Source: a virus. From it: DNA of 27,884 nucleotides. Every line of letters starts with the position of its first letter. The stretch's first letter is position 1. Of this stretch, positions 2,871 to 7,523 are shown one piece after another. Made by a program: the position numbers and the translations under genes. The notes beneath the pieces are model-generated. The model worked only from the letters and a program-made list of their open reading frames with translations. It ran no database searches and was not told where the DNA came from. The stretch lies in IMG/VR virus record IMGVR_UViG_3300031972_000354, positions 1-27,884 of that record, one strand, 5' to 3'.

Positions 2871-3575
2871 ATGCTTCGCAAATCAATACTTGTTATAAGT
2901 GATCAACACGCACCATATCATCATATAGATACACTTGACTTTTTAAGTGCAATCAAAGAAAAATATAAACCTGACTGTGTAGTAAACATAGGTGATGAAA
3001 TGGATTGGCACAGTATATCATTCCATGATTCACATCCTGGTTTATACTCACCTAGTCATGAGCTTGTAGTTGCTAAGAAATTTTTTACTGACTTAGAAAA
3101 ATTATTTCCTAAGCAATACATCATGGATTCTAATCATGGTAGTTTAGTTTTTAGAAAAGCTACTAAACATGGATTACCTCATGAGATCTTTAAGTCATAT
3201 AATCATATGCTTGGAGTAGGTAAAGGTTGGTCATGGCACGAAGATTTGGTTATTAAAGCATCTAATGGTCAAAAAATTTACTTCTGTCATGGTAAATATA
3301 AAGACGTACTAAAAGTTGCACAGCAATATGGTATGTGTACTGTCCAAGGACATTATCACACATCATTCAAAATAGATTATTGGAGCAATCCTAATGAACT
3401 ACTTTGGGGTATGCAAGTTGGATGTTTAATTAACATGAAAAGTTTAGCTTTTGAATATAATAAATTACAAAAGTCTAGACCAGTAATAGGAACAGGAGTT
3501 ATCATTGATGGGTTACCAATATTAATCCCAATGGTTTTAGATAAAAATGGCAGATGGAATAGAAAAATTACCTAG
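2871..3575 (+). CDS. Calcineurin-like metallophosphoesterase
   Basis: All the metal-ligand motifs of the calcineurin-like phosphoesterase fold appear in order in this 234-residue protein: SDQH (D11, H13), GDE (D42), SNHGS (N88, H89), FCHG (H140) and GHYH (H161, H163). The fold uses two metal ions to hydrolyse phosphomono- or phosphodiesters; the substrate here cannot be told. The protein is cytosolic, with no signal peptide. It lies in the late operon among membrane and lysis genes rather than with replication genes. Its last 29 bases overlap the start of the muralytic gene. No strong Shine-Dalgarno precedes ATG 2871, but the SDQH motif sits right at the N-terminus, so the start is sound. Confidence 0.88.
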   Translation: MLRKSILVISDQHAPYHHIDTLDFLSAIKEKYKPDCVVNIGDEMDWHSISFHDSHPGLYSPSHELVVAKKFFTDLEKLFPKQYIMDSNHGSLVFRKATKHGLPHEIFKSYNHMLGVGKGWSWHEDLVIKASNGQKIYFCHGKYKDVLKVAQQYGMCTVQGHYHTSFKIDYWSNPNELLWGMQVGCLINMKSLAFEYNKLQKSRPVIGTGVIIDGLPILIPMVLDKNGRWNRKIT

Positions 3576-3993
3576 AGGTATAAGAAATAAAAATCCAGGC
3601 AATATTAAATTAGGTACTGATTGGGATGGACTGGCAGATGAACAATCTGATCCAGTTTTTTGTGTATTTAAAGAAGCTGTATGGGGTATTAGAGCATTAG
3701 TTAAAATACTTTTAACATACAGGTTTCACCATAAAAGATTTACAGTAGAAAACATCATTGAAAGATGGGCTCCACCAAGCGAAAACGATACAGATGCTTA
3801 TATAGTATTTGTATGTAAACGACTTGATGTTAATCCTACTGATGAACTAAACAATACTATTGAAGATTATTTACCATTAGTAAAAGCAATTATACAAATG
3901 GAAAATGGTATGCAGCCATACGATGATGAGCTGTTAGTAGAAGGGATGTACAAAGCATGGGAAGGTTTACCGACAGATTCTACAGCTTCGTAG
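3547..3993 (+). CDS. P5-like structural/muralytic protein (putative endolysin or virion lysozyme)
   Basis: The N-terminus carries the signature of the phage 'structural protein P5' family: RGIRNKNPGNIKLG near residues 10-23, then a Trp-Asp-Gly, VFCVFKEAVWGIRAL (about 37-51) and IIERWAPPSENDTDAYI (about 70-86). In related proteins this fold is associated with cell-wall degradation, either in the particle or as an endolysin. That activity is inferred here. The length (148 residues) suits a single catalytic domain with no binding domain and no signal peptide, so release would need the holin candidate just downstream. ATG 3547 lies within the end of the phosphoesterase gene. Confidence 0.82.
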   Translation: MADGIEKLPRGIRNKNPGNIKLGTDWDGLADEQSDPVFCVFKEAVWGIRALVKILLTYRFHHKRFTVENIIERWAPPSENDTDAYIVFVCKRLDVNPTDELNNTIEDYLPLVKAIIQMENGMQPYDDELLVEGMYKAWEGLPTDSTAS

Positions 3994-4082
3994 AAAGTAT
4001 AGCTATTAAAATTAAAGTTTGGGCTTGGCATAGACGTGTCAACAGACTTTGGATAGAACGAAAAAAGAAAGGTATTAAATAA
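3957..4082 (+). CDS. Very small basic protein (41 aa)
   Basis: This short frame begins MGRFTDRFYSFVE inside the end of the muralytic gene and ends GIK. Its TAA overlaps the ATG of the holin candidate (TAATG). It fills the otherwise empty 88 bases between the two genes and is rich in Arg, Lys and Trp, with an amphipathic look. The coupling to the next start and the fit to the gap are the main support. It may act with the neighbouring lysis genes or simply couple translation. Confidence 0.55.
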   Translation: MGRFTDRFYSFVESIAIKIKVWAWHRRVNRLWIERKKKGIK

Positions 4083-4462
4083 TGTGGTTTAATTTATTAT
4101 CTATGGGTGTTAAGACTGCAAGTCATATATACCAAAACAAACAAAAAACTAAACAATTAATGTCAGATGCTCAAATGAGACATGCTGAGAAAATGAGTAC
4201 AGGTCAAATTGAATATAAAGCGAAAGTTATTGAGAGTAATGATAAGGGCTGGAAGGATGAGTTCGTATTGGTTCTTGTTTCCCTTCCTATTCTTGTACTG
4301 GTCTACTCTATTTTCACTGACGATCCTGAGATTCGTAATAGATTAGATATGTTCTTTGAATATTTTAAAGAACTTCCTTACTGGTATCAGGCAATATTTA
4401 TAGGAATAGTTAGTGCCATTTATGGTCTTAAAGGTGCTGACATAATGCGTAAACCTAAATAG
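4082..4462 (+). CDS. Putative holin / small membrane protein with two C-terminal segments
   Basis: Residues 1-58 are charged and helical. Two hydrophobic segments follow, about 60-78 (EFVLVLVSLPILVLVYS) and 100-118 (WYQAIFIGIVSAIYGL), with a basic tail (MRKPK). The arrangement recalls the GTA-type holin family, in which a soluble N-terminal helix precedes closely spaced membrane segments. A location three genes after the P5-like muralytic gene fits a holin role. An AAAGG site lies about ten bases before the ATG. The function is inferred from topology and neighbours, not from a decisive motif. Confidence 0.65.
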   Translation: MWFNLLSMGVKTASHIYQNKQKTKQLMSDAQMRHAEKMSTGQIEYKAKVIESNDKGWKDEFVLVLVSLPILVLVYSIFTDDPEIRNRLDMFFEYFKELPYWYQAIFIGIVSAIYGLKGADIMRKPK

Positions 4463-4665: not shown

Positions 4666-4882
4666 AGTAGGTAACTGTAAATGGTGTAGTAAAGATATTT
4701 TTACTAACGAACCATATATGATTGTTCAACAAGAATACTCTTGTGTTAAATGTTTTAAAAATTCAGGACATATGTTACCTTTTTGGGATAAAAATAATAG
4801 GTTTAAAGATGAGAGACACAAAATTATTAGAACAACACGTAAAAAAATTAGAATACAAAACAAAAGAGATGATGCTGTTTAA
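4631..4882 (+). CDS. Zinc-ribbon microprotein
   Basis: An 83-residue protein with two Cys pairs, CKWC and CVKC, about 20 residues apart, spacing typical of a zinc ribbon. A basic tail rich in Lys and Arg follows. Three in-frame ATGs (4631, 4634, 4643) all lie before the first Cys pair, so the start is uncertain by up to four codons. The 5' end overlaps the coiled-coil gene and the 3' end overlaps the following gene by 74 bases in another frame. A nucleic-acid or protein-binding role is possible. Nothing shows a catalytic function. Confidence 0.55.
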   Translation: MMKSMQKNNQNKVGNCKWCSKDIFTNEPYMIVQQEYSCVKCFKNSGHMLPFWDKNNRFKDERHKIIRTTRKKIRIQNKRDDAV

Positions 4883-4973
4883 GCAGCTAAAAAAAGAAGT
4901 ACAAACAAATGCTCATGGAACTAGAGAATACGTTATTAAAAAAGGTATTAATAAAGGTAAAATTGCTAAATGA
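4809..4973 (+). CDS. Small basic protein, unknown function (54 aa)
   Basis: The frame is open further upstream, but the N-terminal part there looks like out-of-frame reading of the zinc-ribbon gene. ATG 4809 gives a plausible Lys/Glu-rich protein starting MRDTKLLEQHVKKLEY, with no hydrophobic segment. Its TGA overlaps the next ATG in an ATGA tetranucleotide, as in other coupled genes here. It is not recognised. Confidence 0.5.
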   Translation: MRDTKLLEQHVKKLEYKTKEMMLFKQLKKEVQTNAHGTREYVIKKGINKGKIAK

Positions 4974-5608
4974 AAACATTATTTATAATTATATTCTGTC
5001 TGTTTTCTACTGCGTTATACGCAGGTAGCACTCAAACTAATACATCTGGATCTAACACAGCAATTGAAGGTGGATATACTGGTGGGGCAACCACATACGA
5101 ATCTGGGTCTACCAGCACAACAACTTCAACAAACAGTTCTACATCAAATATTAGATCTGCACCTCCTACTGCATCAGCACCTTCATACAATAGTATGACA
5201 CAAGATGTATGTAGTACAGGAGCTTCAATAGGAGTTCAAACATTTGGAATAGGTGTTAGTGGTGGAAAACATTTTATAGATAAAAATTGTGAAAGATTAA
5301 AACTAGCTAGAATACTTAATGACTTTGGAATGAAAGTAGCAGCAGTAGCTATACTTTGCCAAGACGAAAGAGTATTTGAGTCTATGATTCAAGCTGGTAC
5401 GCCATGTCCTATAGATGGACGTATTGGAAGTAAGGCTATGGAGTTATGGTCTTTATATGATCATGAACGACCAGACTATAAAACATATGTTAAACGTATG
5501 AAAAAACGTGAAGTAATAGACAAAGAAATACAAATAGAAGAATTAAAAAAAATTAATTCTGAAGTAATATTACCATTACCTAAACCAATACATGACAAGA
5601 AAAACTAA
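4970..5608 (+). CDS. Exported protein with Ser/Thr/Gly-rich N-terminus and Cys-containing C-terminal domain
   Basis: Residues 1-19 form a clear Sec signal peptide: MKT, a hydrophobic core (LFIIIFCLFSTAL), then a likely cleavage after LYA. Residues 20-75 are of low complexity (Ser, Thr, Gly, Asn), as in surface or adhesive proteins. From about residue 80 to 165 there is a compact domain with four cysteines (DVCSTG, KNCERLK, ILCQDE, TPCPIDG) that could form two disulphides in the periplasm. The tail is Lys/Glu-rich. It sits beside a second exported protein and an anchored protein, all coupled by overlapping starts and stops, which suggests a joint role at the envelope. No function is known to me. 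Confidence 0.75.
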   Translation: MKTLFIIIFCLFSTALYAGSTQTNTSGSNTAIEGGYTGGATTYESGSTSTTTSTNSSTSNIRSAPPTASAPSYNSMTQDVCSTGASIGVQTFGIGVSGGKHFIDKNCERLKLARILNDFGMKVAAVAILCQDERVFESMIQAGTPCPIDGRIGSKAMELWSLYDHERPDYKTYVKRMKKREVIDKEIQIEELKKINSEVILPLPKPIHDKKN

Positions 5609-5777
5609 TACAGCATTAATAGCATTATTAGGAACTATATTAATGGGTTTAAGTACTTGGGTTCTTATTACTCTAATTGAATTACAAACAATTGTTGCAA
5701 TGATGCAGCAAGAGTTATTATCTTTAGACAAAGTTTTTGGACGTATATATGCACATATGGATAGATTAGCACAATGA
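5592..5777 (+). CDS. One-pass membrane protein with short coiled coil (61 aa)
   Basis: After a basic start (MTRKTN) there is one membrane segment (about residues 8-30, ALIALLGTILMGLSTWVLITL), then an amphipathic helix. The positive-inside rule puts the C-terminus in the periplasm. It overlaps the exported-protein gene upstream by 17 bases and the next gene by ATGA. It lies between two genes for exported proteins and may anchor them. Confidence 0.65.
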   Translation: MTRKTNTALIALLGTILMGLSTWVLITLIELQTIVAMMQQELLSLDKVFGRIYAHMDRLAQ

Positions 5778-7240
5778 AATGGTGGTGTTTTATAATATGG
5801 GGAGCATTATTATGGTTAATGTTATCTTGGTTTGCAAGTTCTGTTGGATTAGCAGAAAATAATGACACAGCATTTAGTACAAATATATTACCAAACGCAG
5901 GTACAACAACATCAAGTAAAACTAATTCTAATTTAGATGGTGTTCAATCTGGATCTACAGGTAATCTTACAAACAATTCTACACACAATGGATTTACAAT
6001 AACTTGCGAAACGCAAGTAAGCAATGCTTGTGGTCGAGCTTTTAATGGTGAGCTAGAAGCATCACATGATATGACTGTAACAGCTACTGGAAGTTTAGTT
6101 GGAATAGAAGGAACAAGCACCCCTGATGGCGTATCTCATACTTCTACACAAATAAAACTTAATGGTGGTATTAATCTTACAAGTTCTATTGCAGTACAAA
6201 GTTGTGAACATAATGCATCTAATTTTACGTGTGGTAATTCTACTGGAGCAGTAGACTCTTATACTTTAGTTATGAAAGTTAAAGATTCTAATGGAAATAC
6301 TCTAGCTACATCTACACAAATTAGAACAACTGATTCTGGTTACAATGCTAATGAAAGAGTTTGGAATGATAATTTACATTACAATGGAGTTCATGCCAAT
6401 CAATACGAATGGTCTTGGACTGGAGTAGATGGATCTCAAAGTACATCTACAGCTACACTTGGCCCTAATTTATTAGGAGCTGAAATGGCATTAGATTTTC
6501 CTACAGAAGATTATGAACCTTTATCTGCACAAGAAATTAAAGATATGAACGAAGGATTAGGTACTGCTAATTTAAATGAATCTGAAATTTGGAATGTAAT
6601 ATCAGGATTAGAAGAAAGTATTGGTGAAAAATTAAACTTAGAAACTGGTGGAGCAGTTACAAGCGTAGAGCTTACAGAAGAATTTAAAATAGTTGTATAC
6701 ACAGCACCAGAAGCTAAACCTAAAGAAGTTGCTAAAGTACAAGAAGTTGTACAAACAATGAATAAAAGTAAAACTGTAGAAACTTTAAAACAAGAAGTTA
6801 TTAAAGAAGTTATTAAAGAATCAAAAACAACAACTACAGAAGTAGTTAAGAATAATTCTAAACAAGAAGTAGTTAAGAACAGTTCTAAACAAGCAATAAA
6901 AGAAAAAACTGTAAAATCTAAACTAGCATTAACTATGGATAAAATAGATGCTAAAGTTAAAAATCCTGTTAAAAATTTACAGCTTAAAAATTTAGTAAAA
7001 ATAGATGCTATGACAGAAGCTCAAGGATCTTTAGCTAGTTACAATATAGTTTTTTATGCTCCAAAAGATATTTATTTAGATCAAATTAACATTACAGATA
7101 ATAGATTAATATACAATGGTGTTCAATTAGTTAGCTATATAAACAATGATACTATTGGAATTAAAGAAAGAACATTAAACGAACTAAACATAAACAAACA
7201 AAGAATATTACTAGAACTTAAGGAGTTACAAAATGGATAG
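5774..7240 (+). CDS. Large exported protein (488 aa) with Cys-rich domain and Lys/Glu/Val repeats
   Basis: The N-terminus (residues 1-27, MKWWCFIIWGALLWLMLSW...VGLA) is a signal peptide or signal anchor. Residues 28-75 are Thr/Ser/Asn-rich. About 75-230 is a beta-rich region with four cysteines in two pairs (C78/C86 and C144/C153). About 250-300 is acidic and helical. About 311-380 is a Lys/Glu/Val-rich segment containing two exact-length copies of EVVKNxSKQ, and the last ~90 residues look folded again. A periplasmic or surface protein is the best reading, and the charged repeat region could span part of the periplasm. It is neither an obvious tail fibre nor an enzyme. The stop overlaps the next gene by 8 bases. 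Confidence 0.75.
   Translation: MKWWCFIIWGALLWLMLSWFASSVGLAENNDTAFSTNILPNAGTTTSSKTNSNLDGVQSGSTGNLTNNSTHNGFTITCETQVSNACGRAFNGELEASHDMTVTATGSLVGIEGTSTPDGVSHTSTQIKLNGGINLTSSIAVQSCEHNASNFTCGNSTGAVDSYTLVMKVKDSNGNTLATSTQIRTTDSGYNANERVWNDNLHYNGVHANQYEWSWTGVDGSQSTSTATLGPNLLGAEMALDFPTEDYEPLSAQEIKDMNEGLGTANLNESEIWNVISGLEESIGEKLNLETGGAVTSVELTEEFKIVVYTAPEAKPKEVAKVQEVVQTMNKSKTVETLKQEVIKEVIKESKTTTTEVVKNNSKQEVVKNSSKQAIKEKTVKSKLALTMDKIDAKVKNPVKNLQLKNLVKIDAMTEAQGSLASYNIVFYAPKDIYLDQINITDNRLIYNGVQLVSYINNDTIGIKERTLNELNINKQRILLELKELQNG
6839..6892 (+). repeat. 27-bp in-frame tandem repeat (two units) inside the exported-protein gene
   Basis: Two adjacent 27-base units, 6839-6865 and 6866-6892, differ at two positions and encode EVVKNNSKQ and EVVKNSSKQ. 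A shorter 12-base duplication (gaagttattaaa twice, 6794-6817) lies just upstream. Both are in frame, so slippage here would lengthen or shorten the charged linker without breaking the gene. Confidence 0.85.
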
Positions 7241-7523
7241 TATTAAAAAAAACTTAACTAACATAGTAGTTATTATAGGTTTAATTGGTTCTATTGGAGC
7301 TGGTTTTACTAAATATGGAGAACTAACTACTAAATTAAATGAATTAGAAAGTAGATCTACTATTGATTATTCTGCACAAATTGCTGTACTTGAACAAAAA
7401 GTTGAAGCATTAAGTGAACAACATGGTCATATGAATATTCAAATTAATAAAAAAGAAATAGAACTGTTGAAAGTACAATTGCAAGAACTAAAGATAAGCT
7501 CATCAAATCCATTATCTCAATAA
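7233..7523 (+). CDS. Membrane-anchored coiled-coil protein (possible inner-membrane spanin-like protein)
   Basis: The 96-residue product has a basic start (MDSIKKN), one membrane segment (about residues 8-25, LTNIVVIIGLIGSIGAGF) and a long coiled coil (about 30-90). This N-in, C-out anchored coil is the layout of an inner-membrane spanin, but no lipobox-bearing partner is visible nearby, so the spanin label is only a possibility. AAGGAG stands seven bases before the ATG. It is the last gene of the rightward block, and its stop overlaps the end of the convergent DUF3310 gene by 7 bases. Confidence 0.7.
   Translation: MDSIKKNLTNIVVIIGLIGSIGAGFTKYGELTTKLNELESRSTIDYSAQIAVLEQKVEALSEQHGHMNIQINKKEIELLKVQLQELKISSSNPLSQ

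Follow-up and report, generated by a model that had tools for sequence, protein, structure and literature searches.

A conserved module of exported and membrane-anchored proteins in SAR11 phages, roseophages and freshwater phages

Introduction

SAR11 are the commonest bacteria of the ocean, and the locus described here bears on how their phages get through the outer membrane or remodel it. Spanins cannot be recognised in about 13% of surveyed phage genomes, many of which belong to marine cyanophages (PMC6139136), and the presence of curli genes in SAR11 phages is unexplained (PMC7029224, PMC9004378, PMC9599517). The window, meaning the whole stretch of DNA analysed, is a linear virus contig of 27,884 bases. 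A first-pass annotation had singled out within it a cassette of two exported and two membrane-anchored proteins, next to the lysis genes and lacking a lipobox, and had interpreted this as an envelope complex for outer-membrane disruption, superinfection exclusion or the release of an adhesive product. Three of the four genes belong to a conserved module for which phage curli genes are an alternative and which stands where relatives have spanins, and this joins the outer-membrane-breach and curli questions in a concrete gene set, including a version in CRP-207 from a cultured Roseobacter host.

The cassette and its surroundings

The cassette (4970-7523) closes a rightward operon, which converges at 7517 on genes running leftward; the terminase, portal and capsid genes lie 3' of the cassette. 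Upstream are a lysozyme/endolysin-like gene (3547..3993, + strand; phrog_873 'endolysin', E 2e-49) and a gene for a holin-like small membrane protein (4082..4462, +; phrog_2524, a family of unknown function, E 1e-30), whose relatives adjoin lysis genes in HTVC019P and HTVC010P and which is presumably the holin. A small ORF ending in ...GTREYVIKKGINKGKIAK follows (4809..4973, +), its stop overlapping the start of P1. Since the same protein sits before a stand-alone gene for a transmembrane (TM)-coiled-coil protein (phrog_20984) in HTVC019P, the module occupies a known insertion slot. The ORFs, signals, TM segments, cysteines and overlaps of the cassette are as first described, the overlaps being an ATGA at 4970-4973 between the upstream ORF and P1, 17 nt between P1 and P2, 4 nt between P2 and P3, and 8 nt between P3 and P4. 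Elsewhere in the window, a small membrane protein of tail-anchored type (2396-2596) precedes an exported protein of 73 aa that contains Cys (2596-2817; phrog_19893), and similar small genes lie near tail genes in HTVC010P and HTVC019P.

Searches of the window proteins against Pfam, NCBIfam and PADLOC returned no named family, weak coiled-coil matches in the latter two being set aside, and a PDB sequence search with P1 and P3 returned no family either. A lipoprotein scan of both strands of the window found no credible lipobox protein.

The first gene, P1 (4970..5608, +), encodes an exported protein of 212 aa with a Sec signal (MKTLFIIIFCLFSTALYA/GS) that matches phrog_20531, of unknown function, at E 2e-12. 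It consists of a Ser/Thr/Asn/Gly-rich region, free of curlin repeats, and a conserved helical domain with four cysteines (81, 107, 130 and 146) that are invariant in 46 relatives. The second, P2 (5592..5777, +; 61 aa, one TM segment; phrog_33111), is optional, being found in 28 of about 120 loci, and it is only in this close group of 28 that all four genes occur together.

The third gene, P3 (5774..7240, +), encodes an exported protein of 488 aa whose signal extends to about residue 27 (GLA/EN). The mature protein comprises a predicted jelly roll of sugar-binding type (27-244), a Lys/Glu-rich linker and a conserved helical C-terminal region; two of its four cysteines (86 and 153) are invariant, and the other two (78 and 144) are at least 90% conserved. 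A lipobox-like Cys near the signal occurs in 8 of 61 sequences and is ambiguous, and P3 was rejected as a lipoprotein. Structure prediction, which the first-pass annotation had proposed as a check, was informative for one of the two exported proteins. The AF2 model of P1 was poor (pLDDT 54) and was left out of fold claims, while that of P3 reached a pLDDT of 80-95 across most of 31-243. In this model, residues 27-244 resemble the sugar-binding domain of Fbs1 (2rj2; VIA Z 15.1, 163 aligned residues, rmsd 2.8), with further structural matches to CBM61 (Z 11.7) and CBM4-2 (Z 11.5). The region is thus predicted to be a jelly roll nearest to sugar-binding domains, a statement of fold and not of binding. 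It would share the jelly-roll fold of CBM4/9-like modules but has no sequence match at family level: the best member match scores 16.8 bits, below the family cut-off of 25.9, and P3 of the window gives no match.

Foldseek also returns tail-spike and receptor-binding jelly rolls for P3, and these could be taken to mean that it is a virion component, such as a tail fibre or adhesin, with an incidental signal sequence. This is highly improbable, as P1 and the middle protein carry predicted cleavable Sec-type signals family-wide, the obligate partner P4 is predicted to be membrane-anchored, the middle protein of roseophages is unrelated in sequence, and these phages have separate tail-fibre genes.

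The fourth gene, P4 (7233..7523, +), encodes a 96-aa protein with one N-terminal TM segment, a coiled coil and the C-terminal end ...SSNPLSQ. Judged by its sequence, this topology of a single N-terminal hydrophobic segment and a following coiled coil would be that of an inner-membrane type II protein with a periplasmic coiled coil, as in two-component spanins. Profile matches are weak (phrog_20984, E 5e-5; the Rz-like spanin family phrog_739, E 0.065).

Conservation and distribution of the module

Relatives were sought among phage isolates and IMG/VR, where P1 alone has 577, far above chance. P1 is present in every module found, and its Cys domain is common to all phage groups (hhalign probability at least 99%). 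Wherever P3 has 2.5 kb of upstream sequence, P1 is present there (75/75). On the other side, a protein ending in NPL comes next in 84 of the 87 cases with a complete P3 gene. More broadly, such a protein lies 3' of P1 in 229 of the 231 P1 loci with enough flank (two isolates being counted twice), the two exceptions ending in KPL and NPM. Outside NPL, P4 cannot be aligned between most host groups, and the shared NPL end is therefore the conserved point. The interval from P1 to P3 ranges from overlap to 2 kb owing to the entry of other genes, and in phages that are unrelated the order P1, middle protein, P4 holds even as unrelated genes are gained and lost in between. On these sequence grounds, P1, the exported middle protein (component E, here P3) and P4 are a conserved module; of the four genes, these three thus travel together and P2 does not. 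No earlier description of the module as a unit was found in searchable sources.

Carriers include SAR11 podo-, sipho- and myophages, roseophages and freshwater phages. Examples are the podophages Baldr, HTVC033P and HTVC023P, the siphophage-type HTVC202P, the T4-like myophage Mosig and the Autographiviridae genome S28-C10. A cellular origin was rejected: 84,980 genomes gave six hits, all on MAG contigs, and those that were read carry phage genes. Component E falls into classes with no detectable relation to one another: that of P3 (SAR11 phages, S28-C10 and others), a Cys-/Pro-rich class in freshwater phages and a third in roseophages. Homology among these classes, or of P4 across groups, went undetected except between SAR11 phages and S28-C10. 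HTVC033P, infecting SAR11, and CRP-207, infecting Rhodobacteraceae, are both HMO-2011-type phages (PMC9038755) and differ in E class and lipoprotein, a difference that adaptation to the host envelope could explain.

Proteins of the phrog_20984 family, found in HTVC010P, HTVC019P and about 40 SAR11 phages, share the topology, size and genomic slot of P4 but differ from it in having no C-terminal NPL and in following an Rz1-like lipoprotein or a holin-like gene. Because the two often co-occur, they are not the same gene. A strict either-or between them was considered and dropped: it holds in all isolates seen but HTVC115P, and metagenomic loci often have both. The family was seen in 45 phage records, directly after the Rz1-like lipoprotein in T4-like SAR11 phages. 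It is accompanied by a small secreted protein (phrog_24646 in HTVC019P) at L206:38973-39547, in L431 and at L299:4617-5380. Three existing annotations of P4-type TM-coiled-coil proteins are unsupported by Pfam, namely 'DUF2730' in S28-C10 (L009:7740-7964), 'putative lysozyme' for CRP-207 gp73 (L010:3292-3873) and 'lysozyme' for CRP-810 gp51 (L011:7204-7626).

Genomic setting

As a rule, the module is found in the lysis/terminase region. Among loci with adequate flank, an endolysin-type gene is near it in 13 of 16 SAR11-type and all 23 freshwater loci, and a holin-like gene in 8 of 16 SAR11-type, 23 of 23 freshwater and both S28-type loci. With the seed families used, roseophage-type loci have a holin-like gene nearby in only 4 of 23 cases and an endolysin in none of 23. 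In S28-C10, CRP-207, Baldr and HTVC202P, the module precedes TerS/TerL, and T7 keeps Rz/Rz1 in the region before these genes. Proximity to lysis genes, as first proposed, is therefore true of the window but not of Baldr and HTVC202P, in which the module is just before TerL and away from the endolysin. No credible canonical spanin is hidden elsewhere in Baldr, HTVC202P, most of HTVC033P, HTVC010P or HTVC019P, and a 54-aa lipobox ORF in the early region of Baldr (37082-37246, minus strand) was judged an unlikely spanin. HTVC010P and HTVC019P, which are without credible o-spanins, also lack the module.

Small phage lipoproteins such as T5 Llp and phi80 Cor can exclude superinfection, and it is conceivable that exported P1 and E, together with the roseophage lipoprotein described below, mask receptors or block the uptake or injection of competing phages. 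An exported, variable E with a predicted fold of sugar-binding type would suit such a role. It is nonetheless unlikely, given that in the window and in isolates the module lies in the late region among lysis, terminase and structural genes, that PADLOC gives no match, and that a three- to four-gene make-up with an inner-membrane coiled coil would be unusual for such a system.

Alternation with curli genes in T4-like SAR11 phages

The gene order in T4-like SAR11 phages is Rz, Rz1-like lipoprotein, phrog_20984 protein and small secreted protein, followed by either P1-P3-P4 or csgF-csgG-curlin. Downstream of the Rz1-like lipoprotein, 17 of 80 loci have P1, 30 have csgF/csgG and none has both (hypergeometric 1e-4, or 2e-6 for loci of at least 9 kb, in each case ignoring kinship). 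The identity of csgG is secure (PDB CsgG, E 8e-47). Mapped on the lipoprotein tree, the two states have switched at least nine times, at least four of these switches being forced by well-supported branches, and in the sister pairs L461/L468 and L460/L482 one set is exchanged for the other between near-identical flanks. Isolates show the same pattern: csgG without P1 in HTVC008M and Melnitz, and P1 without csgG in Mosig. Phage csgF, csgG and curlin profiles gave no hits in P1 loci, and Pfam gave no match of this kind among the window proteins. The alternation favours outer-membrane disruption or an adhesive product. In the same phages, an exported protein with a ADCTGCGDDGHQ.CP motif adjoins the spanin/curli/P1 locus (L461, +1130 from the Rz1-like gene; L299:5380-5904).

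The phage curli (type VIII secretion) set has been read as adhesive, a means of 'sibling capture' (PMC7029224, PMC9599517), and the module could be its counterpart, placing on the surface of the infected cell an adhesive or aggregating structure, with E as a glycan-binding adhesin, that captures neighbours or protects the infected cell. Beyond the exclusion and the repeated switches, this is in keeping with the resemblance of the modelled E jelly roll to carbohydrate-binding domains, the swapping of E classes and the Ser/Thr/Asn/Gly-rich composition of P1. The idea is possible though doubtful: no outer-membrane channel, CsgG/CsgF or curlin-like sequence occurs in module-bearing loci, the P4 anchor is of inner-membrane type, and small phages keep the module by lysis genes and not by regulators. 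Moreover, the shared slot has been described as hypervariable (PMC7029224), so use of the slot, more than function, may lie behind the exclusion.

For CsgGF, a part in lysis has been suggested too, namely that of a timer (PMC9004378). P4 and P1 could sense the state of the envelope and hold or release the holin, much like T4 RI, and the holin-like genes close by in many loci and a predicted periplasmic disulphide domain would fit. Such a timing role is quite improbable, as it would leave the long linker and the sugar-binding-type domain superfluous, and unrelated holin-like genes are found with one and the same module.

Finally, Rz/Rz1-like spanins and the P1 module occur together in T4-like SAR11 phages (e.g., L299, L431, L460 and L461), and the module is therefore not merely a substitute spanin.

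The roseophage lipoprotein and the place of spanins

Roseophage cassettes open with a short lipoprotein of outer-membrane type (LIP), which overlaps P1 and carries P1's four-Cys domain; a profile made from SAR11 P1 sequences alone recovers 71 of 81 roseophage LIPs and no unrelated ORF. LIP is present in 65 of 69 roseophage loci, and no credible lipoprotein was found in 70 freshwater loci. The first-pass remark that a lipobox is absent is thus accurate for the window and does not extend to roseophages. Another lipoprotein of 51-53 aa (SACSVGKKC... or similar) adjoins P1 in a small number of loci of SAR11 type (L042:5792-5947, with similar ones in L044, L068, L078 and L083).

CRP-207 and CRP-345 have in common a gene encoding an EF-hand and two TM segments. 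Beside it, CRP-345 has an endolysin and a lipoprotein with a C-terminal TM segment (gp68, annotated as spanin2 family), and CRP-207 has LIP-P1-E-P4 and no u-spanin. Across 130 loci with this gene, the module is found in 37, a u-spanin in 13, both in none and neither in 80, and the u-spanin profile matches no P1 locus. This pattern is no more than suggestive (hypergeometric p 0.01 for all loci and 0.05 for well-flanked ones, ignoring kinship). In L415, Rz (phrog_739, 2e-10) and Rz1-like (phrog_812, 5e-9) genes occupy the module's place by the same gene. A u-spanin or Rz/Rz1 in the module's place in these relatives favours outer-membrane disruption. The EF-hand and two-TM family itself (L010:3870-4226; L303:5917-6237, minus strand; L304-L428; at least 595 IMG/VR relatives) is holin-like, is often beside a spanin, an endolysin or the P1 module, and may represent a calcium-linked holin.

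A candidate trans-envelope function

The function common to the spanin and curli comparisons is probably a late one at the outer membrane, and gene position suggests that the module is expressed late. Our tentatively preferred reading, at somewhat less than an even chance, is that the cassette is one late trans-envelope module of the exit programme, anchored on the inner side by P4 and serving to weaken or permeabilise the outer membrane. P4 would be held in the inner membrane with its NPL tip docking on P1 or E, the disulphide domain of P1 would lie on the outer-membrane side, and E, through its domain of sugar-binding type and a linker of periplasmic length, would grip envelope glycan in a host-specific way. 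Once assembled, the complex would weaken or permeabilise the outer membrane from inside as holin and endolysin act, a spanin-like working for which the module is a candidate.

Counting for the exit-programme reading are the P1-E-P4 linkage, the lysis-locus setting, LIP, the spanin/module pattern at the EF-hand/two-TM gene, and the lysis role proposed for CsgGF, the module's T4-like counterpart (PMC9004378). Counting against it are the missing lipoprotein in the window and the lack of a clear lipobox in P3, which leave the outer-membrane anchor putative, together with the co-occurrence with Rz/Rz1, the placement in Baldr and HTVC202P, the absence of an endolysin of the seed families near the module in all 23 roseophage-type loci, HTVC010P and HTVC019P, which lack both the module and credible o-spanins, and the no more than suggestive strength of the u-spanin exclusion. 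What survives of the first-pass envelope complex is a conserved set of proteins, some exported and some membrane-anchored, that is placed at a lysis locus and belongs to no known family; the T4-like co-occurrence tells against a plain spanin. A bolder proposal, which we regard as doubtful, is that P1-E-P4 (with LIP in roseophages) constitutes a new envelope machine with a constant core of disulphide domain and NPL coil and a host-tailored exported arm. It would have spread horizontally among phages of SAR11 and Rhodobacteraceae and those of freshwater, performing at the outer membrane a task that in other phages falls to curli genes or spanins.

Comparison with known systems

Two-component spanins (lambda Rz/Rz1; PHROG 739 and 812) resemble the module in the N-terminal-TM coiled coil of P4, the Cys-bearing partners, the roseophage LIP, the lysis-locus position and the Rz/Rz1 pair at the same place in L415. 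They differ in that the module has two large exported proteins, has no lipobox protein in the window and no credible one in complete SAR11 isolates, has a P4 not recognisably Rz, with a borderline match to phrog_739 (E 0.065; none for P1-P3), and co-occurs with Rz/Rz1-like genes in T4-like phages. Because the defining lipoprotein was sought in the window and not found, the cassette is not to be classed as a spanin. Unimolecular spanins (T1 gp11 type; CRP-345 gp68) are an alternative beside the same EF-hand/two-TM gene in roseophage relatives, but no module protein combines a lipobox with a C-terminal TM segment. The cassette should not be filed as curli either, because the P1 module has no homologue of CsgG, CsgF or curlin, nor an outer-membrane channel. 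What it does share with the phage curli module of HTVC008M and Melnitz is the slot downstream of the spanins in T4-like SAR11 phages, a multi-gene exported make-up and movement between phage families.
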